Positions 956 through 41,114 of a DNA stretch of 64,000 bases are shown here, piece by piece; the stretch's first letter is position 1, and each line of letters starts with the position of its first letter. Below the pieces are notes generated by a model, which saw only the letters and a list, made by a program, of their open reading frames with translations, searched no databases and was not told the DNA's origin. A program made the translations under genes and the position numbers. This stretch comes from Argopecten irradians. Lineage: Eukaryota; Mollusca; Bivalvia; Pectinida; Pectinidae. The stretch is taken from positions 4,033,778-4,097,777 of the forward strand of contig NC_091142.1 of NCBI RefSeq assembly GCF_041381155.1. Direction: 5' to 3'.

Positions 956-1240
956 CTGTCAAAGATTTTTTCACTATGTGAAAATATACGTCGGTGATAC
1001 CAAATACAGAATCATTGACGTATCGCGATCGAGGCTTTGTGGAATCCAGGTTGTGGGATGTATTCAATAAAAGATCAAAATCTGTAATGGTGTCCACCTT
1101 CTTCACCTGTATGTTTCCGTAAAAGTCCCTCTGATTGGAGCATGTATTCGGTTGTCCGTGTGGCACTTGCGATCTTCGTTCGTCATTGTGTTCGTCTGTT
1201 ATTTTCATTTGGCATGTCAAAGCTTCCGCAGTCCTTGTAA
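956..1240 (-). CDS. Gene 1 exon 7-equivalent: two-cysteine module
   Basis: 285 nt, phase 1 to 1. Conserved motifs are LTCQMKI, CSNQRDFYGNIQVKKV and FGITDVYFHIVKK, shared with all other copies. It directly follows the exon 4-equivalent with a 348 bp intron: I found no counterpart of exons 5 and 6 in between. Module identity unknown; possible N-glycosylation sites (NDS, NTS). Confidence 0.8.
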
Positions 1241-19558: not shown

Positions 19559-19570
19559 TTATATATATAA
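19559..19570 (+). promoter_or_regulatory. Gene 3 TATA box
   Basis: TTATATATATAA sits about 30 bp before a stretch (CACACACA..AGACTGACACTCCGG) that is conserved in front of gene 4, where TTATTTATAT occupies the same place at 50555-50564. Conservation between copies and the spacing support a core promoter with a start near 19590-19600. Confidence 0.6.
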
Positions 19571-19589
19571 CGTTTTGGCGATAAGAGGA

Positions 19590-19643
19590 TCACACACATA
19601 TAGACTGACACTCCGGTCTGTCAGTACAGATTGGTTGTTAGAG
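19590..19643 (+). other. Gene 3 non-coding 5' UTR exon
   Basis: Begins about 30 bp after the TATA box and ends at GAG before a GTATGT donor at 19644. Sequence such as CACTCCGGxCTGTCA is shared with 50591-50637 ahead of gene 4. It would splice to the acceptor TTGTTGTTGCAG ending at 20567, leaving 13 nt of UTR (20568-20580) before the ATG. Confidence 0.5.
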
Positions 19644-20580
19644 GTATGTAAAATGTTCGCAAGCTTTCACGATATACTTATCTGGTAGATTCTTTATAAA
19701 TTGTGCTTTTTGTATACATTTATTGAAATATCTTTGTTTACTTTTTACCTAAAAATAATTACTATACCACCTTTTCTGATGGAGGATGCCTTTATTCGTT
19801 ATATATGTTTTCGTTATTTGTTTTATGAATCATCAGTAGATCCATTTTTTATAATAAACTAGAAAAATGACAGGTCAAAAATGGCTCGCTTAATTAGCCA
19901 TACGATAAGAAAGTTACATGTAGTATCTTGACAATGTACACTGTTAAAGATGACTAAAACGACGGATGATGGTAGAGTAAAACACCATTACAACGAACCG
20001 CTAGAGATGAAAAAAAATAACATTTTGCATTGTACACATATAGTACAAACACCTTATAGGAGATTAAGAAATGGAATGCACTATGTTTTAATAACAAATT
20101 TGTTGTAAGCACATTGATTGTAATACTGTTTTACAGATAAATGAAATCTTATGCAAACAGGCGATTATTGAATGAATGAATTAATTTATTTCTTGATTTC
20201 CTCCATTAGACACGAAGAATAGTTTATAATAGAAACATTAAACATTTAAAACAAAAATATATTATTTAACATGCACGCCGACATAAGCTTTCTTTAAATC
20301 TTTAAATTTCAACATACCAATTTGACCTTCAGTCAACTCCTTGTGAATACCTTTGCTTCATAATTTTATCACAGAACGTGTATCAGATAATTATGAAACT
20401 TTTTTTTTCTCAATCTCTAAATCATTGTCAATATGCCCGTTTTGAACCTGGTTAGTCCAAAACGTTACACTGCATCTCTAAATAACAAAGAATATCATTA
20501 TATGAAATGTAAGAGTAATAGTCTACCTCCTTCTATTATAAATGTAAAAAATTGGTTGTTGTTGCAGGTACATACCGATC

Positions 20581-20647
20581 ATGGGTAGGGATTTTTCCCT
20601 TCTTAGGGGTGTGCTTACGCTGCTACTCATCCAGTCGTCTGTGTCAG
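20581..20647 (+). CDS. Gene 3 exon 1: signal peptide
   Basis: The ATG follows a 13 nt UTR after the acceptor at 20567. About 22 residues: charged start (MGRD), hydrophobic core (GVLTLLLI), then small polar residues (QSSVSG) fitting a signal peptidase site. Ends in phase 1 before GTAAGG. Same length as in genes 1 and 4. Confidence 0.85.
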
Positions 20648-23600
20648 GTAAGGCACAATATATCGTTCGTGTTGTTCACCGAGTGTTATTGTCGTTTTAT
20701 ATAGACAATAGTCCTAGAATAAAAATTGACAAAAGGAAGGCAAAGTAAATTAGCATATGGTGAACAAGATGGTAAATACATAATACGTAATACGCGGATC
20801 TAAAACACAATTGTAAACAAGTATACAATATGATAATATGCTAATACATGAATCCATTAATGGATGCAGAACAAGGTGCTTTTGCTGTCCCGCCATTAAC
20901 AATTATTACATGGGTTGTGGGATATAAGAACTGACATACACATTGATTTTTATATGCAAATCTGTGTTAATTTACCACTACTTTATTGGTTAAATTTACT
21001 AGCTCCCCACTTTTTACTCAGATATACACAAGTCTTTCGAAATAACACACCCCTAGAATCTAACGCATATCAGCACTCGACAAATTCTGCCGAATCAATC
21101 AGCTTTGAATTGGGTGGGGTTTGTTTCCGATTGCGCAATCAGTTGCCAGGCGATGTAAAAATTGGGCGGAACTCGTTTCCAATTACGCAATCTCTACTGA
21201 AGTAACTTTCAAACTTCGCCTCGGTGAATAAGGAAACCAGAAACTTGTTATATTCCTCAACCCCCTTGCTTTAACTGTATATTAACACAATGATAAAAAA
21301 TCACTTTTTGTTATTCTTCTTCGATATGTGCTTGGTTATGCATGGAAACGAATCGCCGCTGGGTTTTTTTAATCTACATCCGCTTAGGATACCTTACAAC
21401 ATAACTTAGATGAGAGAGTTAGCGTTTCCTGGTTGTACATCACAACATAGGATAGGTTGATGTTACATTTTAGTCTTTGGAGTGTCTGGGACACAAATTG
21501 TCCACAGAACGTCGTATTTTACAAATATGTAGTGCGATATACAACATTTCTGTCAAATAGCAAATAAATTGAATTTTGCCTTTATATATAAAGTTATATA
21601 TTTTCCTTGTTTCAGTAGTAAGATTTAATGTGAAAATTAAAACTGGGACTAGATCGCACGCCGGAACTTCAGCTAGAGTATATATTGATGTAGAGGGAAC
21701 AACAGGAAATGCAAATTCGGTGTATCTAGGAAATGACTTCCAAAATGGAGAAACCAAATACGCAGACATTTATATTGATGTTGGAAGAGTTAACGCAATT
21801 ACCGTGTACCATGACAACAGTCGAGATCATCCAGGCTGGGATTTGGAATATGTATGTCATCTTTTAATTTTATTTGTTAATCATATATGTAGGAGGAATG
21901 TGGGGTTGCTGATTTCGGCCAAGCACTGTCGCAGTGACGAACTCGCAATGCGAAGAGCGACAATGCTACTATACGCCATGCATCAAATACACTATCGTAT
22001 AGCGCATTGTCGTAATGTCGAAAAGAGCAGTATCGCACTAACACATAGCGCATTGACATGGCCAAAATCAGCCACCATAAGAATGTATAACTAATGTATA
22101 TACAGATCTTGGTAAACATATGACCAAATTTGTGTATTCATTGAACACTAAGCATACCAATAAGCTTACGCATATAAAGCTTGATACATTATTTTTGTGT
22201 ACTTTCATTGTCATATGCATATGTATTTATAACTATTTGTGCGTTCCTTTTGCGGATTCGTGCCAAGTGTACTGAATTAAACAATATGGCGGCACTTTTT
22301 TTGAAAGGTACGCTTCGAATTAAAACAACTGCTTATTAATGAGCATTACGGAGATATTTAGGGAGAAAAATACATGGTATGTAGAACACTTTAAATGCTT
22401 TTTCTATGACAACACAGCAAGTCATAAACCATACAACTTTAAAACGAAGTGCTTAATTTTGTAATCATTTTGAACACGTGGATCCAGAGCTTAAATATCT
22501 GTAAAGATTTTTCTGACCACTCGATCATATTTTCCTTATCTTTCCTATTTCAATGTCAATATTAAAAGTAAAACATGTTGATTATGATTTAGATCGAAAT
22601 GTGGGATATCCCTGCTCTGCTAAAGTATACGTTTGTTTGTAACTGCTGGGTGGAAAAAGGAGATAGGCGAAGAAGGAGCTCGAAAGGTTCTATTAATTTT
22701 TTTCTATCTCTATTGATATTGATATTGTTGTTCCTGCATTTTTTAGGTAATTTTTCCAAATGACCGTAGCTAAGACTTCACAATAACAAAGTTTAAATAT
22801 TTAGTATCTTATATTTCAAATTTTAGACGAAACTGGTTATTATGCCGATTGCATTCTTTACATTCTTTATGCACTATTTATAGTTTTTTTATGATAAAAA
22901 ACAGATGCTAAAATAATTACTTCTTGCCTGATGCAGAGTTAACAATCTCCAAAGTTGCTATCAATTATTTATATACCTGTTCACAAAACTAAAGGTTGAA
23001 TGCTTGACTATTTTTTGTTTTGTTTTACAGAATGTTACTATTATAAAGCGATCGCTCACTGTTCATCGACTCCTGTCAGAGTGCAATGTCATATTGGTAG
23101 ATGCACTAGGTGTGAGGATGGGTATTTCATCGATGGTAATACATGTAGTTGTAAGTAACTCAGTTATCTACTGACGTATTTTTGCTACTAACAAAATAAA
23201 ATAAACATATCACTAAGTAACACGTAAAGTTATACGGAAATTAACTGGGCATACTCGATAATACACATATCTGCTTTCTATTATTTTAGTTTTCAATATC
23301 TACAATTTAATGGATCAATTCATGAACTATACGTTAATTAACATTAATTAACTTACATTATATATAATAATAATAATACAAATACTGTATCAGAACGATT
23401 TTTTAAGTGTTCCAGCAAAATTAATATAGTGTAACTTACTTACTTTTGGAGAAAATCAACTTTTTGTGTCCCTATTTCCCTGATGCAAATATTCACTTGG
23501 AAGGTCTTTATCACTACGGTGTTTATTCGCATTGAAAACAAGCGTCCAGACGCCCTTCGCGGGTTAAGTTCATTTTACGAATTTAAAGTCAATAAAGGAA

Positions 23601-26600
23601 GCGGAACAATATCAAGAAAATGTGCATTTTCAGCTCTAACATCGACATTAGTCGGGCACAGAACTCGATATCGGATAATAAGAATTGCCTATAATAGTTG
23701 CAATAGGAAAATATTACGATGTCAGTAAATAAATGTTTAATTTCTTTCGTTTGATTCAATTTCTAAATTTGATGACTTGATCCCGAACATTCCAGTGACG
23801 TCACTTTTAGTATGAGTGAATGAAACGGCAGTCAGTCCCGCCAAACAGTGACGTCACAATCACCGGAATGACGCCGCTTACATATTTCCCACGGTAGTAA
23901 AAAGGAGTACACACACATTCGGTTTAGTGAATGCATCTTTTCTTGATCATTAAAGAAGCGTTTCGCTTTGAGCGAAATCGTGTAAATAACAGGCAATTTG
24001 CTTTCGTTTTGAATACCATCTTCTGTTTGTATAATGAAAAAGTTGCAGGATAAACAGAATATACGATCACTATCTTACAATACAAGTTTTATTTTGGTGT
24101 CGACAGGGAAAACCGAGATGAATCAGCAAAACCTCATCTCATCTCATCGCACAAACGATAGCAGCATCGATATTAATTAAAGCAAAATTAAAATGTTCAA
24201 CGTTGGAAATATTACAAGTACATTAATTATCAACATAAACCAGTAATTGGAATAATCATTTATTTCATCTAGACTTAATAATTTGCAAATCCCATACACC
24301 GCCTTCAAGGAGACATCCTTGGCCTATCGCTACCCACGATGCTCTCGATCGTGGTCTTATATTATGTAACTTTTCGTGGGATATTAAATCTAGATATATC
24401 TGTTTTCGACAGTTAAATTTCTATGAACATGTGTAAAACAAACAGTCTCAACTGCTATTCCGAGACCGTGAAATGCAATCTTGGTCACCTTAGCCAAACA
24501 TAGGGGCACGCAAATCATGGCAGAAAAGTTTACTAGTAATTTGATACGTATGTCATTTAAAAATATTGGAGACGTTTTGATATGCACGTGTATATCATGA
24601 CGTTTCAAGTGGCTGCCCGTATTGTTTTTTGTGAAAAATGAATTATACATATATGTTATAAAATTCGGTTAGCTTTTTATTGTCATTATTGTTATACACT
24701 GTATGTTATATTTAAACGATAATACATATTTTACCTAAGAAGCCAATGATATATATAATGTAAGTGTCGGTTAGCTTGTAACGTAAACAAAAATAATAAA
24801 AAAAATAAAATTAGGTATATGCTTGCATTTAAGTTCACATAATGATATCATTGTGTTATCGATCGGATATATTGCAGCGTGTGGGCGAATAAATGATTGC
24901 AGTACTACATTATGCAACAATATGGCAGACCGCTGGTGTACAAAGTGTAGGGATATTGATCTGTTTAAACTGGGCAATGGAGGAAGGTCGTGTGAAAGTA
25001 AATATAACCGATAATAACCATATGATATTCATATGGTATTTGAAATATATTTTGATAATAAATTTCATTGGGAATTTACAATTTGTTTCATGATTTTTTA
25101 ATATAAACTAGGTATCATGTGGAAAAATAGCTTAAATTTTTATTACAAATTAAATATATGTTTTTAACAGAAATCATCTTAGTATCCTAGCTAGCGTTGT
25201 TTCAATATAATGTTATCAAGCTGTTTCGAATATTCTATACACCTGTCTTTGCACATAACTTGACCTAGTTTTGAATTTGAATAATTATTTGTTAATTGAG
25301 CTGATGGCTAAGCACAATTAAAACTGCCTGGACCTCTTTTGCCACAATAACTGCATGTGCGACTGTTTTAGGAACGTGTTCGTGGGAGGACCGATGGTGC
25401 TGGCCCGGGACGTGTGGAAGTCCGGATACTCACAACTACGCCAGGAACTGTACATGTGACAGCACCGACTTTAGGAGAGTGTATAGTGCAACTCAAGCCA
25501 AGTGTGAATGTATGTTTAATGTATAAAACATATGTGATATACTATACAATTTGTAGAATCCATCGTGCCTTCTAGTTACCTGAATTATTAGACTCGCACT
25601 TCTTTTGTTCAAAAATAACATCTCATTAAATATATACATTTAAATATTTGTTTCGAATAACACTATTAGCAAAATATTAAGTATGTGTCACCCACAACTC
25701 CCACTATTTCAACATATCAAAGGTTTACTTTTTGTATGACATAAAATGTTCGTTGCTGTCGTGGTTACAATGTCGGTATTGATTAAATACAATACTGGTA
25801 CACAGTTGGGCCGAGCCACGAATATTTTTACGTGCGAAATGATTCCAAACGACAAAAAAAGAGTTTACGGATATTTTATACGGTATTACTCCAAATTAGT
25901 TTCCCTTTTATTAGTTATCATTGTCATTTATTTACAATGCACTCTGCTGTTCACATCTTAATTTGTCATTTAAAGTGGCAAAGCCTCCAGAAGTCATTAC
26001 ATGCCGAATGAAAATCATTGACCAGCATAACGACGAACGCATGTCCATGGTGACACCTGGACAACCGAATCATTGTTCCAATCAACAGGATTTTTACGGC
26101 AACATACAAGTCAAGCACGTGGACACTAGCACAACTTTCGATCTTCTGGTTAACGTGTCTCATCTAAATTCTCAAAAGCCTCATTTCGTCACTGATTATG
26201 CATTTGGTATCACCGACGTACATTTCATCATTGTGAAAAAGACCACGTCAGGTAAGTAATGAAAAACCGTGCTTACATTTATATTAACACGTAAAAATTT
26301 AACAAATTAAAAGGGTTCTCATCATATAATGGAAAATGGCAACTCAAATACTTCGGGTTGCTGTACTATGATTTAATTTTATTTCCTACCCATGACAAAA
26401 ACAAAGTATCCTGCAATTCGGGACGGTTTCTTATGTGGCTCAGCTATATGTGTATGATAAATCAATCGAAGGACTTTAATCATAACAACAATGAGTTTAT
26501 TGTAATGTTCTGTGATTCGTCTATGAGTCCGTGGTTTTCCATAATGAAACTGTGCGGAATGAGATACGTTTTTAACGCCGGGAGATAAAAAAAATATTTT

Positions 26601-29600
26601 TAAACATTATCTTGAACAGGCATTTACACAATGGAGGTCCTAAATATTAACCCTACTGGTTGAAAGAACATTTTTCAAAATTATATCCAAGCTAAACCAT
26701 ATTATTTTGTTGTTTTCTTCAAAAGGCATATTGGTCGTAATTTTTTTATGTTTCAGACTCAGAAACCATTAAAAAAATCCCGATAAAAGAGGATCCAGAC
26801 AGCAATAACATTTTGACCCCGGTGTCCTTTGATCGAACCCTTAATAATGCATTTAGTTTGGAAAATGGTCAAAGGTAAGAAATTAATAATTTAGCAATAT
26901 TATTTTATTCTCCGTGTTCACCGCCATATAGAAATATTTTTAGTTTATTTTATCTGCTAGTCTAATTGTCTTTACGTTACTCTGTCACGCTTTAAATCCC
27001 TATCTCTGAATTCGTTGAACATTAAGATATATAATAGAAATCCGGACAGTAGATGTAACGGTACTGAGATCAATTTTGTCTACTAGATTTACCATGATAC
27101 ATTACTCTATACATGTTGGGGATGTGTAAACTTTCGCGGGTGTAAACTTTCGGGGGGTGTAAACTTTCGCGGGTGTAAACTTTCGGGGGTGTAAACTTTC
27201 GCGGGTGTAAACTTTCGGGGGTGTAAACTTTCGCGGGTGTAAACTTTCGCGGCGGATGTAAACTTTCGGGGGTGTAAACCTTCGCGGGTGTAGACTTTCG
27301 GGGGTGTAAAATTTCGCGGATGTCAATTTTCGCGATATACTGTTTGAACTTATTGGCGAAGGTTTGTTTTCGCAAATTATCTTTGTAGCATTTAAAAGTA
27401 TTATTTATATAACAGTATATGTTATACCAATCCATGACTTTTGAAAAATACCGTAAGGTATTTAATTTCGCGACTTTGGTGAAATCCGCAAGTTCAGCGA
27501 AAATAAAAAAACCGCGAATATTAGCAAACATATAGGATATATTACGCATTTTGATAAGGAACATTTATTTCAATGGTTGATTCATTTTCACACATGCACA
27601 TGGTGTCCAGATTCAATGACATCGGGTAAATGATTTGTTGATTGAATATGTTTAACGTCATGCTAAGGTCATTTTAAGACGAACCCCTTATGTGTAATGT
27701 ATTTCGTGTATGAATGTATGAACGAAGGCTGCGACATATCTGCGTGTATATATCATGGAATAACAGTCGAATTTATACAATTATTATACAATGTAATTCG
27801 CCGATTCATTTCCACATGAAAATGTGAATGTTGATGGATGAAATTTAATGTGTGAATATAGATGCATCATGCGATAAATCAGGTAAAATTTCAAGTGTAT
27901 TATATGTTAAGCAGCGTGAATTTGCTTAATAAGAAGTTTGAGTACCATCATATCTGCGTATATCATCCGTTATTCTAAAAGGCGTAAGCAGGTTATATAG
28001 ATCTTTACATCGAATTTCATTTTCCACATATGTTTCTCAACATTCATTGAAATAAAACAATAAACACAATTTATTCTTGCAACATTTTACACTCACACAA
28101 AATAACAAAAAAACAAGAATGTGGCAAGATCGAAGTTATGGTAGGTGAAATTTCCTTACAATTAATATCTCAACCTAATACTGATTATTTCAATGGAAAA
28201 CAGTCTGAATGTCTACGTTTTATAGTTATATTTTGGAATCAAGGCGCCTGTTTGCAGTTTTTTTTTATTTAATTTTGATTTTGGTGTCAAATGAAAAAGC
28301 AACTATTTTGACGAATACGTACGAATACGTCTATTTAGCATAACATTTCCGATAAAGATACTATATGCTTTTAACAATAGAAACATATGAATGATAAAAT
28401 AGATATAGTATTATTAGAATTGAATTGGAATTGGAAGACCTAAAACATATATAAACGGTGTTTATTGGGTTATCACCATTGCTGCATGGTATTATTGCTT
28501 AAATGATTGTGTATCAAATATGATGTAAAATATCAATAAGAAATGGATACATTACTTGATCAAAACTGGGAAGATATCCCAATCAACTGTATACATGGAA
28601 TGTATTTTGAAGTTTTTATTAAAATGTTGGTCTCTTTTGATTACTTAATTGGTGTGTTATTTTGTGTGTGTTCTGTTTCTGTGCTAGTTTTCGTTTGTTT
28701 ATGTTTATGCAATTCTTCTCCCATTGTCTATATAAGGTCATTTATAAATATATGTTACAATAATTTTGTAATTTTTCTTTTAGGCTTTGTCTTCGATATG
28801 TGATAAAGGGTGGAGGACATATGATTTCTATGAATGTCCAAAATAATAGTACACATCCAGTACCATACCCTAAAACGTCTTCTACGAGAGAGTTATGTTA
28901 CTGGTATGACAATGCCCCGCCAGAACACTGTTTTGAACATTCCGCTTGTGGTACAGAACCACTGGACACAACCAGCCGTATACTGACGAGTCGGGACTTC
29001 ATAGTAACCTTCACAGGCTGGGATGACCCTTCTCCTGTACCTGGAAATTCAAAGTTTTCTTCCGGTATACATACCTACGTAATAAACATGTATGAGGTTA
29101 AAGAGTCGGGGTCTGATTTCCTTAGTGTTGCCAGAATTCCTGTTATACCGGCAGTACAGACAGAAAAAATATCTCCGGTAAATATCAGCATTCCCTCCAA
29201 TTTACCAAATCCAGCTATGTACGCTATAGTTTTAGAAGTGACGGACATTGCTAAAAATGTGCGACAAGCTCGAAGATTCGTCATGTTTGACAATTCATCA
29301 ACCGTAACCTCGCGGGATGACAACCCTTTCTACTCAACAACAGCCTCTCAGAAAACCAATCACAAGTGGCAAACAAACCTTGGACAGATATGTTACTCCT
29401 GGACCAACAAATACTACAACGACAAATTCCATACTCTGAATCTTCTAAAACCAATACGAAACGATCCACATGGCTTGATTTCTGGTGTTTACGACCAAAC
29501 AACTGGAATCCTTCCCGTATCAGGAACTGAAAACATCCACGGTATCACGAGGTTTTATTACACACTAAGACGGGATGGGAAGATAATAAATAACACAGAT

Positions 29601-32600
29601 GTTCCTGACTTTACGTCACAGAAATTATGTGTCTCACCAAAACTAACTGATGGGAATACTTATCGTTTAGATTTACTGGCAGAAGATGTGATGACCCATA
29701 CCTATACAGACTCCCTGGTTACTTACATTGACTCTAGTGAACCTGAAATATTCGATATTTGGCTCGAGAAAGACGGATATGAGCGACTCTTTGTACATAA
29801 CAGTATCGACTTGTCTAAAATGATTCTCACATTCGAGGCTTCTGATATACACAGTGGTATTCACTCCGTAGACTGGTCTCTTGGTACAATTTTTGGAGGG
29901 AACGATATTGGACAGGGCTCCATTGGTGTACAGCGGCTCGGCCCGAACGTAAGTATCTCTTCATTTCTTTCGTGTGAATGTCCCTCCAAGACCGTTATAT
30001 TATAACATTGACAAAATTTAAGTGTTCCCTGCCATCAACATGTATTGCATTAACTGGCACTGACATGTGGAGGACGAAAAATATTAATTGTGTAGTCAGA
30101 TCCATGTTGAGTATATTTAATCGTAATTTGTAATTTATACATTTCCTTTTTTAAAACCCTTGTATGGTCCATTTACAAATGCTAAATTTAAAATCCGTTA
30201 CCTTTCTCATGTAGAGGAACTCAGAAGTCGTTAGTCCTTATTTCATTACCATTTGACCATTACAAAATACATGGGTATATAATTATTCGCAAACAGATGA
30301 AATCAACAATTGGATTTGTCTTTCAGATCACCTGTCCAGATGCTGTACTGACCTGTTACTGTCCTTCCGTAGGAGTTTGTTCCTTTAACAATTTCACGCT
30401 CCATCTGAACTCACTCGTCCATAACCACACCCATAAAGGAAATCACAACCGCCAGTACCACTTTACCATAACAGTTACCAATATAGCTCAACTTATCTCT
30501 GTAGAACATTTAGAAATCCTGGCTGACGACTCGCCACCCACCCCGGGGGTTGTGATGGAAGGGACGGTCGGGTCACCAGACATAGACTACACGAGTAATG
30601 AGATAGTTACTGTTAACTGGGCCGGATTCTTTGATCACGAGAGTGGTATAAAATTGTATAAGGTCGGGCTATCCAGAGAGTGTTTGGACATTGCAGAGTT
30701 TGGACGATCAAATGATAATATCACGAATAAGGGAATATCGGTCTTGGAGACAGCATTGACATCGGCCCGTCTTTCTCTGCCAGAAGATGGGAAGTTCTAC
30801 GTGACTGTAGTGGCTTACAACAACGCTATGGAACCATCAAAGCCCGTCTGCTCGGATGGTATCGTTCTGGACAGGACTAAACCAAAGTTGGTCAACTTTA
30901 CGTTACAGAGTGCGACTATGAGAGAGACTATTCTATGTTCTGATGGTAGCGCATGGTTCATCACAGCAAACTTAACGAAACACGAAATACGCGACATTGA
31001 GTGCAATGAAAAGTGTCAGAATTCTACCACAAATGACTTTGTCTCGAGTCTTCCAAGGGACATCCCGGATATGAAACACGATCTTACTCCGACCTGCAAC
31101 ATAAGTGCTTTACATGGTACTATCTATCTCCCGATCGATTTGATTAACCTAAAATGGAATATAATCGAGGGTGAAAGCCAAACTCACGAGGCATTCTTTG
31201 GGATAGGCTCAACAAAGGATTGTGGATCTTCTCCAGATGTAATAGGTTACCAGAAAACTAATCACAAATATTTCTACAAAAAACGACATACTGGCCTTAG
31301 TAACGGAGATGAGTTCTACATCTTCATCAAGTTACCAACAGTGCCGGCCTTGGTACGACGGCTGTGATTGGTCCGGTTCTACTTGATGAGTCCCCTCCCG
31401 TCTGTCCTATGATCCTGATACCAAATATCCATGACGACATTTTGTTTATCAACTGGACCAATGGAGAGTTCCGTGATAGTGATCAACATGAGGACATATC
31501 GTCCTTTAACTACCGGATTGGTAAATTGGTTTACTTCTTTTATTTCTTCATTAGTAACCTTGCTAGATCTAAAAAAAATCAAATAGGAACGATATACTTG
31601 AACTAGAAAAATATAGTTTAAAGAAAGTATGTTCTACAACACTTTGTTTATTAGCAATTAACATTGTTCATTTCTTAACTGCAGAGTCAATTTCATGACA
31701 GGTGCCTTCTTTAATTTTCAGGTCGTGAAGGGAAACTAGTGTCCGGATTTATCCCTCTTCCTAACACTGGATGTAATGGGAGTAAGTGCTTCAACATTGA
31801 CGTGTCAGATATACAAGCCTACGACATCCATGCAGGATGTGAATTCTATATTGAAGTTTATGCTTTTAATAACGCCGGTTATTACTGTACTGTCGATACC
31901 GAACCATTCTATCTTCCATCGATTCTGCCTCCTGGTCATGGGATCGTTTTTGACATCATACCTGGTAACATCTCCCCTCACAAGAGCTACGAGTGACGTC
32001 GATATAGCGTTAGCGTCATCTCATGTTTGTGTTACGTGGGAGGGATTTGAACATCATGGTGGTGTTTCCTATGAATTCGGAGTTGGACAATCTCCTGGAA
32101 CTGATGATGTGGTTTCGTTTCACCAAATCAGCAATACCGGCGTTCATTGTGATACAGTTACTAACCTGACCAAGTATACACAGTATTTCTCAACAGTCCG
32201 AGCGTCGTCAACAGGAGGAAAAAGGGTCGGGATCTCGGACGGTTTAATCATGGCCAACGAAGATGATATTGATTCTTCAATCTTACATGTTTATGATGGG
32301 CAAGGATGTTCTGGACGCGCACACATTCTAAAAGAAACCGTGTGTTTTCAATAAAAGAATTAGCCTTTATTCCAGCCCACAAAAATTTCCATATTGGACA
32401 TACATATACCTTTATAGCAAACGCGAGCGTTTCCATTCTTAGCGAAGAAGCTATCATTCACACTCAGAGACAGATAAAACAACTATATTACACAGCTTTT
32501 ACAACGATGGTTCGCTCCCCTCGCTTCAACGTGTCATCCAATGACGATAAGAATTATCATGTCAGATTATACGTTGCTGACTGCGTCATCGATCATGACA

Positions 32601-34062
32601 TCATGTTTGCATCTAATCGGGTGTCAGTCTACTGGGACAATGATGATTTCCATCAGTATGTATCACATTACGAAGTAGAACTCCGGGTGTATCACGTGAC
32701 AATGCATCACAAACTGATCTCGTGACATTGGCGTACGGCAAAACGTCTGGTAAACACCGCGTTCTACAGTTTTAATGACGTATCGTTAAAATCCGGGAGG
32801 TATATTATTTCAGTCAGACCTTGTATTCGGGAGATGTGCTTGAAATGGACCAGTTCTGACGGATTTGTAGTCATGGATGCTACGTATGATGAGTTTAATG
32901 TAGAGGCTAACTTGCATAAAACAGGAGACGCGTGTTCAAGTGTTAGCCTAACAATATCAGATATTGAATGTCCATTCGGAATAGATCATGGGTGTGATGT
33001 TATTGCTCGGTGGGGAATATTTCAGGACAACACGGCCACACTACAAGTTACACCGTGGATTGCACATCAAATATCTGAAAACCAAACAGAAAATTTCATG
33101 GTGAGTTTATTTGTTTTTAAATTACAATGCTCCATTAAAAATTATACCATGATATTTTTTTATATATAGTAATGTTTTTTATATATTATATATTGCTTTT
33201 TTACCCGTTTCGTGATCTTGTCATTTTAGTTTATATATTTGATGAATCACTTTATTTACAGATATCACAGTGTATCAAGATCCCACTGTATCCTCACCAG
33301 ACATTGTTTACATGTGTTGAACTTTACTGCCCTTTGGGAACCTCTGGCTTGCAATGCGTCCCTTTAACAGTATCAGAGGATCCCAACAGCTTCGACAAGA
33401 CGGCTCTGTACGAGGTAGACTCTGATTCAGATGTTGTCAGGGAAATAAGGAACTTCATCCACGCTTCAAATTTAGGAAAAAGACTCGCGTCGTTACATGA
33501 GGCCGAACTAGACTTCTCTGCAAAGCCTGTTCGTGTTGGCGGGATAATACTTGGATTGGAGGATCGCCAAGTCACATGGTATCTACTGAAGGATAAAATG
33601 AACCAATCATTCACGTGTGACGATAATCCCCCCGTGTGTGTAACTGTCCATCAAACTGTTGGAGGATTTTGTCCTTTTCAGGGGATTGTACTTGAAAACG
33701 AAATAATCCACTACATCTGTGCAGAGATAGAAAGCTATACAACTCCAAATGGACAGATACTCCCTGCCTTTCAGACTTGTGGTGATGGGTTCGTTTTTGA
33801 CGAAAATCCGCCCGAGAAAGGTGACGTCATTATTATATCACAGAACGGGTACATCACTAACAACAGACATATGCTGGTCCACTGGGATGGGTTTAAGGAT
33901 TTCCATGGTTACAAAGACCTGGGATACCCGGACAGTATATCCAGATATGAATATTCAATAGGTAAGATGGTTAGATCATGGTTTCTTCACTGTATGTTGA
34001 CAAGCTGCATTGAATTGCAATGAATGAAATATATATTTTTCCGATTTTATTGTTTTGTTTTT

Positions 34063-34102
<40 letters not shown>

Positions 34103-37100
34103 GGGGGGAGATATACAATTTCTTACAACATTAATTTCCTCTATTTTAAAGGAAGCAATCCATATGGAGAAGACGTTGTTGCCAGGAAGACAATTGGTCA
34201 TTCGAATTCCGTGAAAATCATCAGTCCGAATCTCCATCCGGGTTCCACGTATTATGCCACCGTTACCGGTATGACTTTTATTAGTTCACATTTAAGACAC
34301 AAAGAACACATCAATCATCACATGTTGATAATCTGTTTTGTATACATTGTATTATTTGCCTTACTAATGTGCTTTATTTTTTTAAATTATCTATTTACAA
34401 GCATTTGATCACGTGGGCCATTCAAGCACAGTTGTCTCCCCTGGAGTTCTGTATGACGACACGCCCCCTGTACGTGGATCGTTACATGTTGGAACCTATC
34501 TGATGTCAAAAGACTTTATTGAGTCAGAGGTCCACGTGCACTGGACAGGTTTCGATGACGACGATAGTGGAATCGATAGGATACAGGTGGGAATTGGATC
34601 AACCAAATCGGAAACAGATATCGTGAGCTTCCGGAACTTTTCCGGGAAATGCGCCATATTTACTGACCTCTCTCACTACCATGACGGACATGACTATTAT
34701 GCTATCATTCTGGTGAGTAACTTTTCTTGTATTCAGAGTGACAAGACACAATCAATTATCGTGTAAGATATACAATTTATGAATCAGACACTTTTTTAGA
34801 TTATTCTTTTTTTTGTGTGTTTCATTCAGGTGACAAACAAAGCGGGACTGTCAGTTCTGTCAGCGTCAGAATCGTTTGTTATAGATAAATCCCCTCCTAC
34901 AAAAGGCACGGTCCAAGATGGAGTTGACGTTCAATCGGTAATGCAATTTTGTGCAATTATCTGAACTCTTTCATGAAGTGAAGAATTAATAAGACTGTTA
35001 CTGATTGAAGTATATGATTGTTATTAAAATTGCTATCAATATGGTTTTCATGGCGAAACATATGGGGTTTTTTTTTAAATGCAAAAAAATCATGAGGGAT
35101 CTAGCGATCAATGATTGTTCATGGCTTTTTATTACCATCATGAAAACTGAAAGGAAACAAATTGATTAAGTTATTATAGACGAAAATTTAAAATAAAAAA
35201 AAAAAAATCTGTGGAAAAATATGTGCGGTCAATGGATCTTGGTTTTCATTTTTATTTTATTGAATTTACAGCCGGACATTGACTTTCAAGCTAACACGAC
35301 ACATGCTGGATGCCATTGGTCCGGATTCAGTGACCCTCATTCCGGAGTGTTGTATTATACAGCAGGTCTAGGTACCCAGCCGTCAGAGGATGACGTCAGG
35401 ACCATGACTTCAACTGGAACACAGACAGGTAAGATTAAAATAATATCGCATGTGTTAGTCAGGTAAAATATGATTTCTATATCTATATCACTTCATGAAA
35501 GGTTATATATTATGCATTTTTTGTGATACCGATGAAATCAGTATCAAATCAAACGCATTCAATTTCTGATATTAGTATAAAAGTTTTGGTTGGCATGGAT
35601 ATATTAGAATAATGCATTCTTAAACTATTTGCATCAGATATATGCGTTCTGTTCTATGTCAACGTTGTGATCTGAGATATATGAATATCAGAATAATCAG
35701 AAGCAATATAACTTAAATCATTACATTTAAGCAAATGTATTTTTACATCCGAAGTCGGATAATGAAAATATATACACCAAATGTAAAATTGGTTTGACAG
35801 CAATACGCTGGCAGCATACACTTGTCCCGGGCGCACAGTATTTCTGTACCGTACAAGCGTGTAACGGAGCTGGATTGTGCACGTCTGTGTCATCCAACGG
35901 CTTTACTACAGACACCTCTCCACCAGTCCCAGGTGTCGTCCATGTAGGAATTGATGGACATCACTCCAGATACTGGCCTCATCCGTAAGTAAAACAATCA
36001 ATCACTACGCATGGTAGTTAATAATGTAACACAAAAGAAAATTAAGAAAATTTACTCATCTCAATGAGACATTTTCTTTATTCCTCATAAACCTATTCAC
36101 CGAAACCATTTATTTTCCTAACACCAGGAAGGTTGGGAATAGCCTGCAAAACACGGTTGTCGTTCCTTTGGGTAGCACGTGACGTCGTATATGTGCTACA
36201 TTAGAACCATTCGAAAAGTTATCTCAATGCATCCTTTCCCTGTATATTACAATTTAAACATTTGGTGTGATATTGCTCGTTATAACACATATTAAGGTGT
36301 CTGTATGTGGGAGCAGTTTTAATTTGTAAATACATTGTAACAAATAAAGCTCCCAGCTTACCGAACTACGGTACATAGTCACCAGATCAACACAAAACGG
36401 TCCATTTTAACAATTCATATTGGATTCTTGAATATTCATTTTAAAAGTAACCGGCGGTCAAAATGTTATATATCCATGTAAATCATTGAAAACATGTGCA
36501 ACAATAATTGTGAACAAGCAATTACAAGCGGAATTTGTAAACACTGTGACGCCATCGTGACGTCATCAGATTTTATTGTAATGCATTAATTGCAACAATA
36601 TACGATATCTTACAACATTTTAACGTTTGCAAAGTGAGCTCTGAATGATGGGCAGCATTAACTCATATGCGTAATATGTTGTGTAGTTTTGCTATGCAAA
36701 ATCCAATTATATCCCTAAGATAGACATATTTGTTAACAATATAAAAAAAAATTTGTTCTATTTTGGTACAGAGATACGATTCAAGCCCAGTGGTTTGGCT
36801 TCTCTGATGTGGAATCTGGGATAAGAAGGTACGAAGTGTGTATCCGAAGTTATTGACAATGAAACATGTGACATTTTACCTTTTCACCAATTTCCTCCTG
36901 GCCGACTACATGACTATCCCAGTCACCCTTCCACTAGACAAGACCCTATGTGTGTGTGGTCAGGGCAGAAAACCATCTTGGAATGTCTATGGAAAGCATC
37001 TCCGACAGCTTCGTCGTGGATCCAACCCCACCAATACTGGTCACCAAACCAATTATCCATACCGAAGAATACACTTCACTAAACAATATGTATCAATTTG

Positions 37101-40100
37101 ACACTTCTGTTCTTAAACTTTCATGGAGGTTTCAGGATTCCGAGAGTCCAATTGTGAAGCAAATCGTTTCAATCACAACCCATCACGAAGGTCATACACC
37201 GGTAGAAAACATACACTTAACGAATATTAACGAACTACGTATATCACTTCCAAATAAAGAATGGCTTAGACCAGGAGATACGTACATCGCAAGAGTGACA
37301 GCCTGTAACGAGGCAGGACTTTGTACTTCTGAGAAGTCAAATAGCCTTCCTATAGACCCAACTCCTCCTCATCTTGGGTGGAATCACTGAGCCGATGACC
37401 TGGTACTCTATAACTGAATCAAATATTACAGTATCAGCAATAAACATCACTTTATCTGGATTCATAGATGTGGAATCTGGTGTCAAGCTGTACCACGTGA
37501 CCGTTAGTGAGACATACAGCGGATCTGAGCTCAGTGACGGCGTTATTTCCTTTACACCATCAGGCTCTGGCATAGAAACCATCCAAGTCTTATTGAATGA
37601 CACAATCGATGCAGGACAGTTACTGATAATCACAGTTTGGGCTGAAAACTTTGCTGGACTTCAAAGTGAAGATGGTAAAGTGACAGTGACTGCTGTATCC
37701 TCAAGTCCTACTGATAAACACGGAGAACTGGAAATTCTAAAACATTCCTGTGATGTACATTATTGTAACAAGGATTGTACGTGTGCTGTTGTAGGACAAA
37801 AATGTCACGATGTTGACGTACCCACTGAGTGTGCCAGAGAGATAACACAAGTTCCTCCATATCACTGTATATTGATGTCATACATGGATCTGTAAATACC
37901 CCGATATCTGCGTCTTCAGCGTGTATATCTGCTCGCTGGACAATAAACGGGTCTGGTGTTGACGATATCATGCGATTCGAATGGAGCATAGGACAAAATA
38001 ATATGCCCGTTGGGACTGGAATATTTGATCCTCTGTATGAAAATCTGTGGTATGACATTGGAAAACAAACATCAATTGTTCATTGTTTGAGAGGTGAACG
38101 CTACCTTAAGCACGGAGCTAGTTATTTGGTCTACGTCAGAGTTTGGATATCTGCATCAGAGTTTATTGTGTTTACCTCATCTCCGATTGAAATTGATAAC
38201 ACCCCTCCATCTGTAAGGAAAGGTAGTTATATCAGAGAAAATGGCCGAGGGTCTTGTGACCGTGACCTTGACATTACCACGACACTGGATTCGTTGACTG
38301 CATGTTGGGGAAAAGTATTTAGTGACCATCAAAGTGGAATCGATTCATTCTTGGTGTCTCTGGGTACCATTCCAGGAGGTAAGATATTTAGGTCTCATAC
38401 AAAGTCAGTTGCTATCTTATTTGTCATTTCAAAAATGTCAATAAAATGATTATCTAAATAACCAAGCTGTTGCTTTATAGTAACCTATAATACATTACTT
38501 CTTCCCTCGTTGACTGTTTGATACATTGATAACTATTTTGAGCGAATTTTGCAATCACTGAACTTCTGCATCATTTGTTTTGACAGCTGATGACATCATA
38601 CCCATTGAAGACGTAGGTTTGAACACTTCAAAGTCCTGGTCTGACTTGACTTTATCTCCAGGAACAAAATATTACGTCACCGTCACGGCTACAAATCAAG
38701 ATCGGACTCCATAAAACGCTTGTATCGGATGGTGTATTGGTCGACCAAGAAAATCCCTATACAGGTGAAGTGTTTAATACAGCGAAGTTCTATAATTCAC
38801 ACTCTCAAAATTATCAAGATGTTGGAGTGTCGTTCCGGGGATTCGCAGACCGTCATTCAGCCATCAAAACGTTTCTTGTGGCTTTCGACAGGTCAGGAAA
38901 TGGTAGCCAAGAACTGTTAAAATTTGAAAGAATCGGTATACAGAATACAAACCGTTATACGGATATGAATCTTACAGATGGACATTGGTATAGATTTGCT
39001 GTGAAAGCATTGGATGCTGCGGGATTTGAAAGTGAAATAATATTTTCGCCTCAATTCATGTATGATTCTTCTACACCAACTGGATTTGCACCGTGCGAGT
39101 ACACGAATCTGTTTAACGAAACATTAGAATCAGAAAACGGAACTTTAGTTTGGACGAAACCGATAGTCAACAACACGCATCCATCTGTTTACAGAGTTCA
39201 TTTGGTATTTACTGAGATTGAGGACGGTGAATTGGTCGAAATTTCGTTTGAAGATCAAAGACATATGTATTCCATTCAATCTAATATGTTCGATACCAAT
39301 GAAGTTCATGCTTCGTTTCTGAGTTCGCCACTCTTTAACGACGACCGAAGCATTGTTTTACAAATGGGCAAAGTAAACACCAATGTAAAAGTACAGCTTA
39401 TGATAGATGTAAGTGACAACATCACACTTACAAACAACACCGACAATTCTGTGATTGTACGACAAGTTTCGCCATCAGAGCTTCATGTTACCGTCAACGT
39501 ACTCGACGAAGAAAGTGGAATCAAAAACATTTTTTGTAGGGGCAGGTTCCACACGCGGTGGGTTTCAGATCCATCCGTTAGTTATTGTGCCACGGTCATC
39601 AACACTCTTCACAGAGGCACTGCACGGACAGGAGGTACATATCACCGCCATTGCAGAAAACCACGCCGGAGATCGGAGTCACTTTCACGCCAGTCCTGTT
39701 ATTGTGGATCACACACCACCACAGATATCAAACACAAATATGACCATAAACTACAAACAAATATTGGAACAGACATTGAGCAAGGTCGGCCTTACTTGGG
39801 AGGTGACAGACGTAGAAAGTAAAATAACTCAATGTGCCTGTGCGATAGGTATGTCTATGTAATAATATTGATAAATATGGCATATCATGTGCATTAGTTT
39901 TCGTGTTTTATGACTATAAAATATATATTATAAAATTATAAAATCACACATAATAACTAAGTACCTATATCGATAAACATACGTGGATGTCTTAAATGTG
40001 AGTCAATGCATTTTTATTTCTTTTTCAGTGGATGACGACAACAGACCAATATATGACGGTATAGCTGTCTCACTCAAACAGTTTGTGACACCATTGCTTC

Positions 40101-40971
40101 CCCTTCCACATGGTTCAATGATATCCGCTCACATCACTTGCTACAATGATGCTAACATGAAAACATTGACTACTGTTGGACCGGTACTTATTTCTTATCT
40201 TCCTCCAGACGTGAAGGAAAGTGAAATATCCTTCGTAACAACAGCTGAGACATCGGCCGGAATTCCTGTCACCTGTCCGAGTTCACCATTAATGTTTTCC
40301 TGGGAAGGCATCGATGACGCATTTGGAATCAAAGGTTATTCATACCGTATCCTCCAGGGTGGCCAGATTTCAAAGGACTGGGAGGACACGAAGATGCGGA
40401 CCTCCGTATTGGTGGAGGACATCAGTCTCACAAACAACCGTCTGTACACTGTGGAGGTCATGGCCAGTAACTACGCTGGGTTTTATAGCAAAGCCATCAA
40501 CGCCTCTATTCTCGTCCTCGGACATGCTCCTACGCTCACAGGTAAGCGTAATGTTCTCGTCCCGAGAAAGGCTCATATATTACTGTAATGTAATATCTGC
40601 ATTTTGAAAAGGATTTAATAATATAACGATATAACGATATAGCGATGTAATGATAAGATATACATCTCAGGATATCTAGCCTTTGTTTTATATTAAATGT
40701 AGGTAAATTTCCACGGATCACAAGAACAGGCAAGACTTTAGATGTTTCATGGAATGACGTCTTTTTTGTACGACATGAGTTACAGCCTTCATACAGCGTC
40801 ACATTGGGGTCAGAAGAGGGTTTTATCGACATCATAAGTCGTAAACATTTACAAGACCAGCGATACGTGGTTGATGTCTCCTATACCGGAAATGACGTAT
40901 TTACCATCATAACATGTACATATATAACAGGGACATCAAACGTGTTTCGTGGGAGGGTGACTGTCTCATAG
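20581..40971 (+). CDS. Gene 3: giant secreted PLAT / EGF-like / FN3-like repeat protein, complete 21-exon copy
   Basis: Coding exons: 20581-20647, 21616-21851, 22593-22686, 23031-23150, 24878-24997, 25372-25509, 25976-26251, 26757-26874, 28784-29948, 30327-31520, 31722-33100, 33262-33961, 34152-34268, 34402-34712, 34830-34937, 35272-35428, 35801-35984, 36772-38378, 38587-39848, 40029-40541, 40703-40971. The product is about 3,370 residues: signal peptide, PLAT, three six-Cys modules, a two-Cys module, a linker and about 20 FN3-like repeats. No transmembrane segment precedes the stop, so it should be secreted. PLAT suggests lipid or surface binding, and the repeat tail suggests a matrix or recognition protein; this is inference. 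Exons 10, 11, 18 and 19 carry about 12 small frame breaks. Once allowed for, all splice phases agree. Confidence 0.8.
21616..21851 (+). CDS. Gene 3 exon 2: PLAT domain, first part
   Basis: Acceptor TTGTTTCAG, donor GTATGT. PLAT hallmarks: FNVKIKTGTRSHAGTSARV, VYLGNDF, VGRVNAITVYHDN, and HPGWDLEY. 236 nt, phase 1 to 0; the domain finishes in exon 3. Confidence 0.9.
21901..22078. mobile_element. MITE-like element in gene 3 intron 2
   Basis: Terminal inverted repeats: TGGGGTTGCTGATTTCGGCC at the left against CATGGCCAAAATCAGCCACC at the right (about 21 bp, few mismatches). Inside are further partly palindromic segments with ACAATGC and GCGCATTG motifs. Non-coding. The ORFs across it are chance. 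Confidence 0.65.
22593..22686 (+). CDS. Gene 3 exon 3: PLAT domain, last part
   Basis: Acceptor GATTTAG. Reads IEMWDIPALLKYTFVCNCWV then EKGDRRRR, the classic PLAT terminal strand with CNxW. Donor is GGTTCTA, a weak GT site where gene 4 has GTACAT. 94 nt, phase 0 to 1. Confidence 0.85.
23031..23150 (+). CDS. Gene 3 exon 4: first six-Cys EGF-like module
   Basis: Acceptor TTTTACAG, donor GTAAGT, 120 nt, phase 1 to 1. Six cysteines (ECYYYKAIAHC, VQCHIGRC, RCEDGY, NTC). Same pattern in genes 1 and 4. An EGF-like fold is the best guess from size and spacing. Confidence 0.85.
24878..24997 (+). CDS. Gene 3 exon 5: second six-Cys module
   Basis: Acceptor ATTGCAG, donor GTAAAT, 120 nt, phase 1 to 1. 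Motifs SCGRINDCSTTLC, DRWCTKC, GGRSC give six cysteines. Present in gene 4, absent in gene 1. Confidence 0.85.
25372..25509 (+). CDS. Gene 3 exon 6: third six-Cys module
   Basis: Acceptor TGTTTTAG, donor GTATGT, 138 nt, phase 1 to 1. Motifs RTCSWEDRWCWPGTC, RNCTCDSTDF, QAKCE give six cysteines and several Trp. Absent in gene 1. In gene 4 it is 9 nt longer and has lost cysteines. Confidence 0.8.
25976..26251 (+). CDS. Gene 3 exon 7: conserved two-Cys module
   Basis: 276 nt, phase 1 to 1, acceptor TTTAAAG, donor GTAAGT. Motifs PPEVITCRMKIIDQHNDER, HCSNQQDFYGNIQVK, HFVTDYAFGITDVHF. Found in all four copies, so it is a diagnostic module. I do not recognise the domain; alternating hydrophobic strands suggest a beta-sandwich. 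Confidence 0.85.
26757..26874 (+). CDS. Gene 3 exon 8: linker
   Basis: 118 nt, phase 1 to 2, between TTTCAG and GTAAGA. Encodes a polar, Asp/Asn/Lys-rich segment (IPIKEDPDSNNILTPVSFD) without cysteine. The counterpart in gene 4 is at 62475-62584. Confidence 0.75.
27125..27345. repeat. 16-bp minisatellite in gene 3 intron 8
   Basis: About 13 tandem units of TGTAAACTTTCGCGGG alternating with TGTAAACTTTCGGGGG, giving a 32-bp higher-order period. Units decay at the right end (TGTCAATTTTCGCGAT). Further TTTCGCG words continue to about 27520. Strongly strand-asymmetric: G-rich on the plus strand. The antisense ORF here (27070-27564) is repeat translation, not a gene. Confidence 0.85.
28784..29948 (+). 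CDS. Gene 3 exon 9: core FN3-like region
   Basis: 1165 nt, open throughout, phase 2 to 0, acceptor TTTTAG, donor GTAAGT. Motifs: LCLRYVIKGGGH, ELCYWYDNAPPEHC, FTGWDDPSPVPG, SSGIHTYVINMYEV, NPAMYAIVLEVTD, ICYSWTNKYYNDKFH, GITRFYYTLRR, HSGIHSVDWSLGT. High identity to the gene 2 and gene 4 copies makes this the best-conserved exon of the family. Several N-x-S/T sites fit an extracellular location. Confidence 0.9.
30327..31520 (+). CDS. Gene 3 exon 10: FN3-like repeats, one frame break
   Basis: Acceptor TTTCAG, donor GTAAAT. Starts with a Cys-rich stretch (ITCPDAVLTCYCPSVGVC), then DDSPPTPG, NWAGFFDHESGIKLYKVGLS and FYVTVVAYNNAMEPS, a textbook repeat of this family, followed by a Cys-containing repeat. 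At about 31331 AAGTT stands where AAGGTT is needed to continue into GPVLLDESPP. With that one base the exon is 1195 nt and the exit phase matches exon 11. Confidence 0.8.
31722..33100 (+). CDS. Gene 3 exon 11: FN3-like repeats, four frame breaks
   Basis: Acceptor TTTTCAG, donor GTGAGT. Readable segments: FYIEVYAFNNAGYYC, CVTWEGFEHHGGVSYEFGVG, YTFIANASVSIL, VSVYWDNDDFHQYVSHYEVEL, CDVIARWGIF. The frame changes near 31985, 32329-32348, 32685 (GGG for GGGG) and 32770 (TTTT for TTT). The changes cancel overall, so the exit phase still fits exon 12. Confidence 0.7.
33262..33961 (+). CDS. Gene 3 exon 12: Cys-containing segment and FN3-like repeat
   Basis: 700 nt, open, phase 0 to 1, acceptor TTTACAG, donor GTAAGA. 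Contains paired cysteines (FTCVELYC, SFTCDDNPPVC, GGFCPF, HYICAEI), then the repeat start DENPPEKGDV and VHWDGFKDFHGYKDLG. Confidence 0.85.
34067..34108. repeat. Poly-T tract followed by poly-G in gene 3 intron 12
   Basis: A run of about 35 T followed by seven G, 43 bp before the exon 13 acceptor. It may serve as an extended polypyrimidine tract or be a retroposed tail. Length is unreliable in most sequencing. Confidence 0.6.
34152..34268 (+). CDS. Gene 3 exon 13: end of an FN3-like repeat
   Basis: 117 nt, phase 1 to 1, acceptor TTTTAAAG, donor GTATGA. Encodes GSNPYGEDVVARKTIGHSNS then LHPGSTYYATVT, the closing strands of the repeat begun in exon 12. Confidence 0.8.
34402..34712 (+). CDS. 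Gene 3 exon 14: FN3-like repeat
   Basis: 311 nt, phase 1 to 0, acceptor TTTACAAG, donor GTGAGT. One nearly complete repeat: YDDTPPVRGSLHVGT, VHWTGFDDDDSGIDRIQVGI, DGHDYYAIIL. Confidence 0.85.
34830..34937 (+). CDS. Gene 3 exon 15: repeat junction
   Basis: 108 nt, phase 0 to 0, acceptor TTCATTCAG, donor GTAATG. Encodes VTNKAGLSVLSASESFV then DKSPPTKGTVQDG, joining two repeats. Too short for ordinary ORF detection. Confidence 0.8.
35272..35428 (+). CDS. Gene 3 exon 16: FN3-like repeat centre
   Basis: 157 nt, phase 0 to 1, acceptor TTTACAG, donor GTAAGA. Contains HWSGFSDPHSGVLYYTAGLG and TQPSEDDV, the best match to the family centre motif. Confidence 0.85.
35801..35984 (+). CDS. Gene 3 exon 17: end of a repeat and next start
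   Basis: 184 nt, phase 1 to 2, acceptor TTTGACAG, donor GTAAGT. Encodes GAQYFCTVQACNGAGLCTS then DTSPPVPGVVHVGIDGH. The pair of Cys around ACNGAGLC recurs in exon 18. Confidence 0.85.
36772..38378 (+). CDS. Gene 3 exon 18: long FN3-like exon, five frame breaks
   Basis: Acceptor TGGTACAG, donor GTAAGA. About five repeats: AQWFGFSDVESGIRRYEV, DPTPPILV with SWRFQDSESP, DPTPPHLG with LSGFIDVESGVKLYHVTVS, ARWTINGSGVDDIMRFEWS, DNTPPSVR with FSDHQSGIDSFLVSLG. Single extra bases are inferred at 36844 (CC), 36891 (TTT), 36958 (GG) and 37376 (GGG), and an extra GA at 37837-37842. Removing them gives a length whose exit phase matches exon 19. Confidence 0.75.
38587..39848 (+). CDS. Gene 3 exon 19: FN3-like repeats, two frame breaks
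   Basis: Acceptor TTTGACAG, donor GTATGT. Contains YYVTVTATNQD, SFRGFADRHSAIKTFLVAFD, HWYRFAVKALDAAGFES, a more diverged repeat, then VNVLDEESGIK, DHTPPQISNTN and TWEVTDVESK. Extra bases inferred at 38703 (C) and 39523-39527 (AAAAA for AAAA). Exit phase then fits exon 20. Confidence 0.75.
40029..40541 (+). CDS. Gene 3 exon 20: FN3-like repeat
   Basis: 513 nt, open, phase 1 to 1, acceptor TTTTTCAG, donor GTAAGC. Motifs FSWEGIDDAFGIKGYSYRI and LYTVEVMASNYAGFYSKAI, the last canonical repeat of the protein. Confidence 0.85.
40703..40971 (+). CDS. Gene 3 exon 21: C-terminal exon and stop
   Basis: Acceptor AAATGTAG. Encodes a final beta-rich segment (TLDVSWNDVFFVRHEL, YSVTLGSEEG, RYVVDVSYTGND) ending at a TAG at 40969-40971. 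No membrane anchor or GPI-like hydrophobic tail, so the mature product is released. Confidence 0.85.
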
Positions 40972-41108
40972 AACAGCTCGTGTGGTTTTGTGTATTATCT
41001 AAATTCTTTTATTTGATGATTAATGCCGTAAAACACTGCTTATAAAATTGATGGTCTTGATCATTTATGGAATGGCTTTAACCGCGTCCTGACACTACTT
41101 TGTACCAA

Positions 41109-41114
41109 AATAAA
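41109..41114 (+). terminator. Gene 3 polyadenylation signal
   Basis: AATAAA 138 bp after the stop, in a run of overlapping AATAAA/AAATAAAAT motifs. Another AATAAA lies at about 41203. Either could end the 3' UTR. Confidence 0.55.

Follow-up and report, generated by a model that had tools for sequence, protein, structure and literature searches.

Giant secreted PLAT-headed proteins with an FN3-like stalk in a scallop gene cluster: a possible bivalve family of recognition proteins with exchangeable heads

Bivalves have no antibodies and rely on large lectin-like repertoires. Among large modular proteins, hemicentins combine a VWA domain with an immunoglobulin (Ig) array and contain TSP1; PLAT, C-type lectin (CTLD) and SUEL lectin domains occur across the polycystin-1/REJ family together with FN3-like REJ modules, GPS and transmembrane helices; and LOXHD1 has many tandem PLAT domains. 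In gastropods, the VIgL proteins (FREP, CREP and GREP) are described in PMC5433772 as multi-gene plasma proteins that place fibrinogen, C-type lectin or galectin binding domains on an immunoglobulin-type scaffold, the fibrinogen domain of FREPs being C-terminal. Here we analyse gene 3 of a 64,000-nucleotide stretch of the 846-Mb genome of the scallop Argopecten irradians (C9:4033778-4097777, hereafter the window). Gene 3 and its tandem copies share one architecture, an N-terminal PLAT head followed by a long FN3-like stalk; related stalks carry four head types, and parts of the stalk are nearly identical between copies whose heads are old.

The exon model of gene 3 draws on reading frames and splice sites and on a comparison with its paralogs, and its coding span runs from the E1 ATG at 20581 to the end of E21 at 40971. 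On a single strand it encodes a signal peptide, a PLAT domain, three cysteine modules, a two-cysteine module and an array of FN3-like repeats (Table 1), confirming the order proposed by a sequence-only reading of this DNA. E2 alone matches PF01477 with 40.9 bits over profile positions 2-84 of 117, and inclusion of E3 extends the match to positions 2-106 and lifts it to 54.5 bits (cut-off 23); the PLAT domain of paralog c4146 reaches 60.6 bits. The lipoxygenase PLAT domain in the PDB is matched at 5.8e-05. The three cysteine modules had been read as six-cysteine and EGF-like. Three cysteine exons (E4, E5 and E6), all of phase 1-1, are indeed present, but the EGF-like label was dropped, as no Pfam family matches the 126-residue region at E <= 1 (sequence models). 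E5 is present in four of the eight PLAT copies and was not detected in the other four; being of phase 1-1, it could be lost without a frame shift, and such exons would allow modules to be lost or swapped in frame.

The NCBI predicted model P0014 (“uncharacterized protein”) is identical in sequence to the gene 3 chain, covers window positions 20581-36853 in 17 exons, and joins head and array in one coding sequence, with exon borders that agree with those drawn here for gene 3. As a predicted model, P0014 is independent support for a PLAT domain, cysteine modules and FN3 array within one gene, as the sequence-only reading held. P0002, at the C9:9.93 Mb copy, reads from the C-terminal PLAT exon into the array. 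Separate genes for head and stalk are not favoured, because the public models P0014, P0008, P0009, P0022, P0016 and P0021 each join the two.

The full-length form is seen in paralog c4146 (C9:4146145-4163418), which comprises 21 coding exons for about 3,360 residues once its own frame break is bridged; the model as computed spans this break by a false 61-base intron, so that 22 exons and 3,357 residues are printed. The predicted 21 exons with their roughly 3,370 residues fit this paralog, whereas the window copy as assembled is not open and carries 12 frameshifts. The c4146 chain ends in VTVS and contains 39 N-X-S/T motifs and 90 cysteines, and its four most hydrophobic 19-residue windows all lie inside the signal peptide. 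In P0001, which is modelled headless, the Kyte-Doolittle maximum over any 19-residue window is 1.27, arguing that a membrane span in the stalk is unlikely. With a repeat profile seeded by seven c4146 repeats and iterated on 12 family proteins, 16 FN3-like repeats are found in c4146 at an independent E-value (iE) < 1e-3, 17 at < 0.1 and 21 at < 1; the earlier count of about 20 is thus reached only with the weak repeats. The repeat consensus matches PF00041 with 33.3 bits (cut-off 25) and fibronectin structures of the PDB at 1e-6, and the whole c4146 protein scores 64.2 bits; most single window exons taken alone stay under the PF00041 cut-off. An AlphaFold model of E9 (mean predicted local distance difference test, pLDDT, 73.4) shows strands over its whole length and matches structures of the FN3 type. 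In the c4146 array, the Ig-like models PF24489 and PF25788, above cut-off, and PF13750, below it, are of phage or bacterial type.

Relatives of the stalk occur in Mytilus, Mya, Dreissena and Tegillarca, and the heads on related stalks are of at least four types: PLAT, CTLD, TSP1 and SUEL. The protein search detects relatives that share exact words, and taxon range and head list are therefore lower bounds; P0010-P0013, P0017 and P0026, as short or weak matches, were left out of the family, and the head list leaves out the C231 and C9:26595 copies. The family had been called lineage-specific, which is wrong as stated because of these stalk relatives, PLAT being one of at least four heads. TSP1 heads are carried by P0007 and P0008 (the C3 copies) and Mizuhopecten P0009, SUEL lectin heads by Mytilus coruscus P0016 and M. 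galloprovincialis P0021, and a CTLD head by Mya arenaria P0022 (PF00059, 43.8 bits). Dreissena P0025 has a cysteine-rich start that looks TSP1-like by eye and matches no TSP1 model. No head model was found in P0015, P0018, P0019, P0020, P0023 or P0024, in some because the models start late, and P0001, P0003, P0004, P0005 and P0006 have no recognised head as modelled; several public models for the family are cut short or headless. In the scallop, none of the genome's 41 SUEL matches lies at a family locus. At the C9:35.97 Mb copy, a CTLD stands upstream, followed by an E5-like cysteine module (PF00059, 41.7 bits for the joined sequence). A genome search with this CTLD exon, in which 150 of 233 candidates were scored and 45 matches listed, gave as its four best listed matches C9:35974535, C9:35886024, C968:17255 and C9:35927054 (E <= 1.6e-23), each upstream of a same-strand two-cysteine match; the fifth among those listed (E 4e-12) lies elsewhere.

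A stalk tree (21 sequences, 920 columns, midpoint root; P0004, P0020 and P0025 entering from their first residue, uncut at the two-cysteine module) joins P0005 with P0006, which comes from the CTLD locus at C9:35.97 Mb, in one clade and places it next to the PLAT clade of the scallop. The scallop TSP1 clade, the Mytilus SUEL clade and the Mya/Dreissena pair are placed apart. Four head states on one stalk tree imply at least three changes; with two forks unresolved and P0025 on a long branch, the tree does not settle their order. The CTLD of Mya and scallop may be ancestral or may have been gained twice.

Exon copies were counted as tblastn matches spanning at least 60% of an exon in the C9 stretches retrieved. 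The PLAT exon E2 has eight loci in these stretches, and the two-cysteine module has 20 matches genome-wide: ten at C9:3.71-4.15 Mb, six elsewhere on C9 (one with internal stops), two on C3 and one each on C968 and C231. The proposed tandem expansion of a secreted family is borne out by these counts. Genome-wide PLAT matches extend this set by two, located next to the C9:9.93 Mb copy and at C9:2507; no PLAT exon was found at m4045 or m4128 in the C9 stretches examined, nor any cysteine exon beside m4045. About 4 kb from the C9:2507 match, a two-cysteine match at C9:6858-7010 contains one TGA and two TAA and may mark a copy, decayed or misassembled, where the contig begins. Two further dense PLAT clusters lie at C7:19.23-19.51 Mb and C8:10.85-10.89 Mb, with no two-cysteine match on either contig. 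Just outside the C9 cluster, C9:4180394-4184929 (minus strand) shows weak stalk-repeat matches of 27-33% identity and is possibly a more distant FN3-like gene. In c3868 (C9:3876603-3878614), E14 and E20 are about 1.1 kb apart with the intervening stalk unmatched, which could mean that the copy is shortened internally or that the assembly has a gap there.

Within the C9 cluster, comparison of the copies indicates old heads under purifying selection on nearly identical stalks. Nonsynonymous (dN) and synonymous (dS) divergence were estimated by pairwise counting, excluding two E14 matches of about 34% identity (c3856 and m4045) and matches outside the named copies. Mean pairwise dN and dS are 0.32 and 1.21 in E2, 0.19 and 1.20 in E7, and 0.12 and 0.53 in E9, and dS in E14 is 0.00-0.06 among W4055, c4105, c4146, c3868 and m4036 and about 0.7 for c3713. 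In 300-base windows along c4146, head introns are mostly unalignable and exons from E9 onward are at high identity; stalk windows that are nearly all intron are mostly about 80-97% identical between copies (the exceptions being one intron near 67% and one aligning in c4105 alone), and about 4 kb of stalk is unmatched in c3868. Copies also switch partners along their length: the heads of c3868 and m4036 hardly differ (E2 dS 0.02) and their ends are diverged (E21 dS 0.87), and W4055 and c3868 show the reverse (E2 dS 1.01, E21 dS 0.16). This mosaic of old heads, near-identical stalks and changing partners points to gene conversion or unequal exchange, and gene conversion would keep the stalk uniform as the head exons diverge.

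Taken together, secretion, the head set and the stalk-and-tip design suggest that targets are recognised at a distance, an analogy being the VIgL proteins described in PMC5433772. We tentatively infer, at a little short of an even chance, that gene 3 belongs to a bivalve family of giant recognition proteins, soluble or matrix-bound, with exchangeable heads. Behind the head, such a protein has cysteine-rich linker modules, a beta domain with two cysteines and a stalk of some 16-21 FN3-like repeats. The N-terminal head would bind a ligand, a glycan in the case of CTLD and SUEL and a lipid or surface protein in that of PLAT, and the long glycosylated stalk would keep the head off a cell, mucus or matrix surface, or link several heads. 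The family could then serve recognition or agglutination of particles and microbes; the architecture suggests, but does not prove, that microbes, cells or matrix are recognised. A recognition role, also raised by the sequence-only reading, gains from the lectin and other binding heads of the relatives and draws no support from dN/dS.

Several points weigh against recognition. PLAT heads were found here in one species; the scallop CTLD heads are a matter of genomic adjacency, since P0006, the NCBI model of one such locus, begins downstream of the CTLD, and the CTLD match at C968:17255 carries one internal stop. The dN/dS ratio of means is 0.09-0.28 in E2-E7 versus 0.22-0.44 in E9, E14, E20 and E21, and the heads are therefore not faster evolving in proportion. 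Positive selection on heads was not seen by pairwise counting: dN exceeds dS in none of 225 exon-by-pair comparisons (counting pairs with saturated dS, which cannot exceed), so that an arms race, averaged over the heads, is not seen. FN3 stalks, moreover, are equally common in structural matrix proteins. Almost as good a fit as recognition is a structural protein of extracellular matrix or mucus, without any part in immunity, in which the FN3 stalk would be a fibre or spacer and the heads would anchor to different matrix or membrane partners: the heads are under purifying selection, the chain is long with many N-glycosylation motifs, and FN3 arrays with TSP1 are typical of matrix proteins. We nevertheless consider it rather unlikely as a full account, given that two of the four head types are lectin domains and that tandem expansion with diverged heads exceeds the needs of one structural role.

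The broken reading frame of the window copy raises a question about the copy itself. In an alignment of E10, E11, E18 and E19 with their counterparts in c4146, c4105 and m4036, 10 frame-shifting insertions, two frame-shifting deletions and one in-frame deletion are confined to the window copy, so that none of the three paralogs shares any of the 12 frameshifting changes. Of the paralogs, c4105 is free of private changes, c4146 carries a single insertion near 30769 as well as a 2-base exon-edge difference due to exon cutting, and m4036 shows an insertion of 11 bases and two minor exon-edge differences. The NCBI model P0014 is correspondingly shortened to 1,673 residues, skipping 31353-33261 and leaving the reading at 31352 and 36853, near frame breaks. 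Gene 3 could on this evidence be a decayed copy, a pseudogene of which only the paralogs matter, which concerns the copy and is compatible with the other readings of the family. We regard decay as doubtful, however, as the 10 insertions and two deletions all fall within four exons and the window copy shows no net frame shift elsewhere (in E7, a +1 and a -1 change lie nine bases from each other; E1 and E8 were unmatched in the paralog comparison, yet are read through in P0014). Paralog c4086, moreover, has 59 insertions and three deletions within 1.2 kb downstream of the window (C9:4099853-4101046), many small insertions being present from its Cys3 exon onward, in the window at 61259-64000, a pattern that looks like uncorrected long reads. 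Because of this pattern and the excess of insertions in gene 3, assembly error is a serious alternative, at least as likely as decay, and the insertion density in c4086 means that gene models across the cluster should be taken with care.

An egg-coat or gamete recognition protein, proposed earlier and in keeping with the lectin-type heads of invertebrate egg and sperm recognition proteins, is improbable, as the heads here are conserved and not fast evolving, unlike most gamete proteins.

Features of the window are collected in Table 1. The stretch of the 5' exon matches upstream of three paralogs, at C9:4145587, 3854771 and 4084345 (tblastn). The intron between E8 and E9 holds a minisatellite of 16-base units (GTGTAAACTTTCGCGG) in about 13 copies, at window 27124-27334.

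Table 1. Exons of gene 3 and paralogous features, in window coordinates.
Feature	Position	Strand	Basis or remark
Head of paralog m4036 (E2, E3, E4, E7)	963..2885	-	Stalk outside window
Partial paralog m4045 (E7, E8, E9; truncated or headless)	8242..11412	-	tblastn
Probable non-coding 5' exon	19559..19643	+	Start from the sequence-only reading; donor gag/gtatgt at 19644
E1: start codon 20581, signal peptide	20568..20647	+	Hydrophobic N-terminus; P0014 start identical
E2: N-terminal two thirds of PLAT	21616..21851	+	PF01477; 8 copies on C9 including window copy
E3: C-terminal part of PLAT	22593..22686	+	PLAT score gain; 8 copies; in P0014
E4: cysteine module 1, phase 1-1	23031..23150	+	9 copies
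E5: cysteine module 2, phase 1-1	24878..24997	+	4 copies
E6: cysteine module 3, CSWEDRWCWPGTC signature, phase 1-1	25372..25509	+	3 copies and a fourth, damaged; 11 places genome-wide
E7: two-cysteine module	25976..26251	+	20 places genome-wide
E8: continuation of two-cysteine domain	26757..26874	+	In P0014
E9: first stalk domains	28784..29948	+	8 stop-free copies; AlphaFold model
E10: FN3-like repeats; one frame break near 31329	30327..31520	+	
E11: FN3-like repeats; four frame breaks	31722..33100	+	
E12: FN3-like stalk	33262..33961	+	
E13: FN3-like stalk	34152..34268	+	
E14: FN3-like stalk	34402..34712	+	
E15: FN3-like stalk	34830..34937	+	
E16: FN3-like stalk	35272..35428	+	
E17: FN3-like stalk	35801..35984	+	
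E18: FN3-like repeats; five frame breaks	36772..38378	+	
E19: FN3-like repeats; two frame breaks	38587..39848	+	
E20: FN3-like stalk	40029..40541	+	
E21: last exon, VTVS-stop end	40703..40971	+	AATAAA runs at about 41.11 kb
Paralog c4086 (E2-E9 within window)	52330..64000	+	

Returning to the recognition-family reading, we compared the scallop proteins with the systems described at the outset. Hemicentin, the NCBI name for relative P0009, is likewise giant and modular and shares TSP1 with the TSP1-headed branch; membership was rejected, as P0009 has no VWA, Ig-superfamily or EGF/fibulin-like match at E <= 0.1, a threshold at which it shows fn3, TSP_1 and two Ig-like names of phage or bacterial type under cut-off. 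The polycystin-1/REJ family has the domain set PLAT, CTLD and SUEL lectin in common with ours, and was rejected in turn: the c4146 Pfam list up to E 10, whose filters drop most matches above 0.1, contains no REJ or GPS, and a membrane span is unlikely. LOXHD1-type proteins, as which P0010 is annotated, share the PLAT domain; here a single PLAT stretch is joined to an FN3 stalk, and P0010 aligns over 3% of the query, so this membership was rejected as well. Database names of members are “uncharacterized protein”, “unnamed protein product”, “SUEL-type lectin domain-containing protein”, “Hypothetical predicted protein”, “hypothetical protein” and “Hemicentin-1”. No description of the family was found in the literature searched, which has most subscription journals outside it and includes the accessible parts of PMC12001498, PMC5549309, PMC10140915 and PMC5433772; in those parts, PMC12001498 has PLAT in its reference list alone and the main text of PMC10140915 is without “fibronectin” or “fn3”. 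The claim that no named family has this order agrees with both the protein-database relatives and this literature, among which there is no named equivalent.

The likeness to the VIgL proteins, as PMC5433772 describes them, is that of a mollusc gene family with one kind of scaffold and differing binding domains. They differ in that the scallop family sets an N-terminal head on an FN3 stalk of some 16-21 repeats, whereas VIgL proteins use an Ig scaffold. No Ig-superfamily family is listed for c4146 up to E 10 under the same filters, and in place of the C-terminal lectin domain typical of FREPs, the heads are N-terminal and the chain ends in stalk. It is conceivable, though we hold it with less confidence than recognition as such, that these proteins form a bivalve-wide, undescribed recognition system of giant soluble proteins, with a conversion-homogenised FN3 stalk and separately acquired PLAT, CTLD, TSP1 and SUEL heads, comparable to the VIgL lectins of gastropods but built on an entirely different scaffold. 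If so, the pairing of a uniform stalk with an exchangeable binding tip would add a new design to those by which molecules recognise their targets. Exchangeable binding domains are already familiar from other modular proteins of the recognition type; the FN3 scaffold and this set of heads are, as far as the literature was searched, new.

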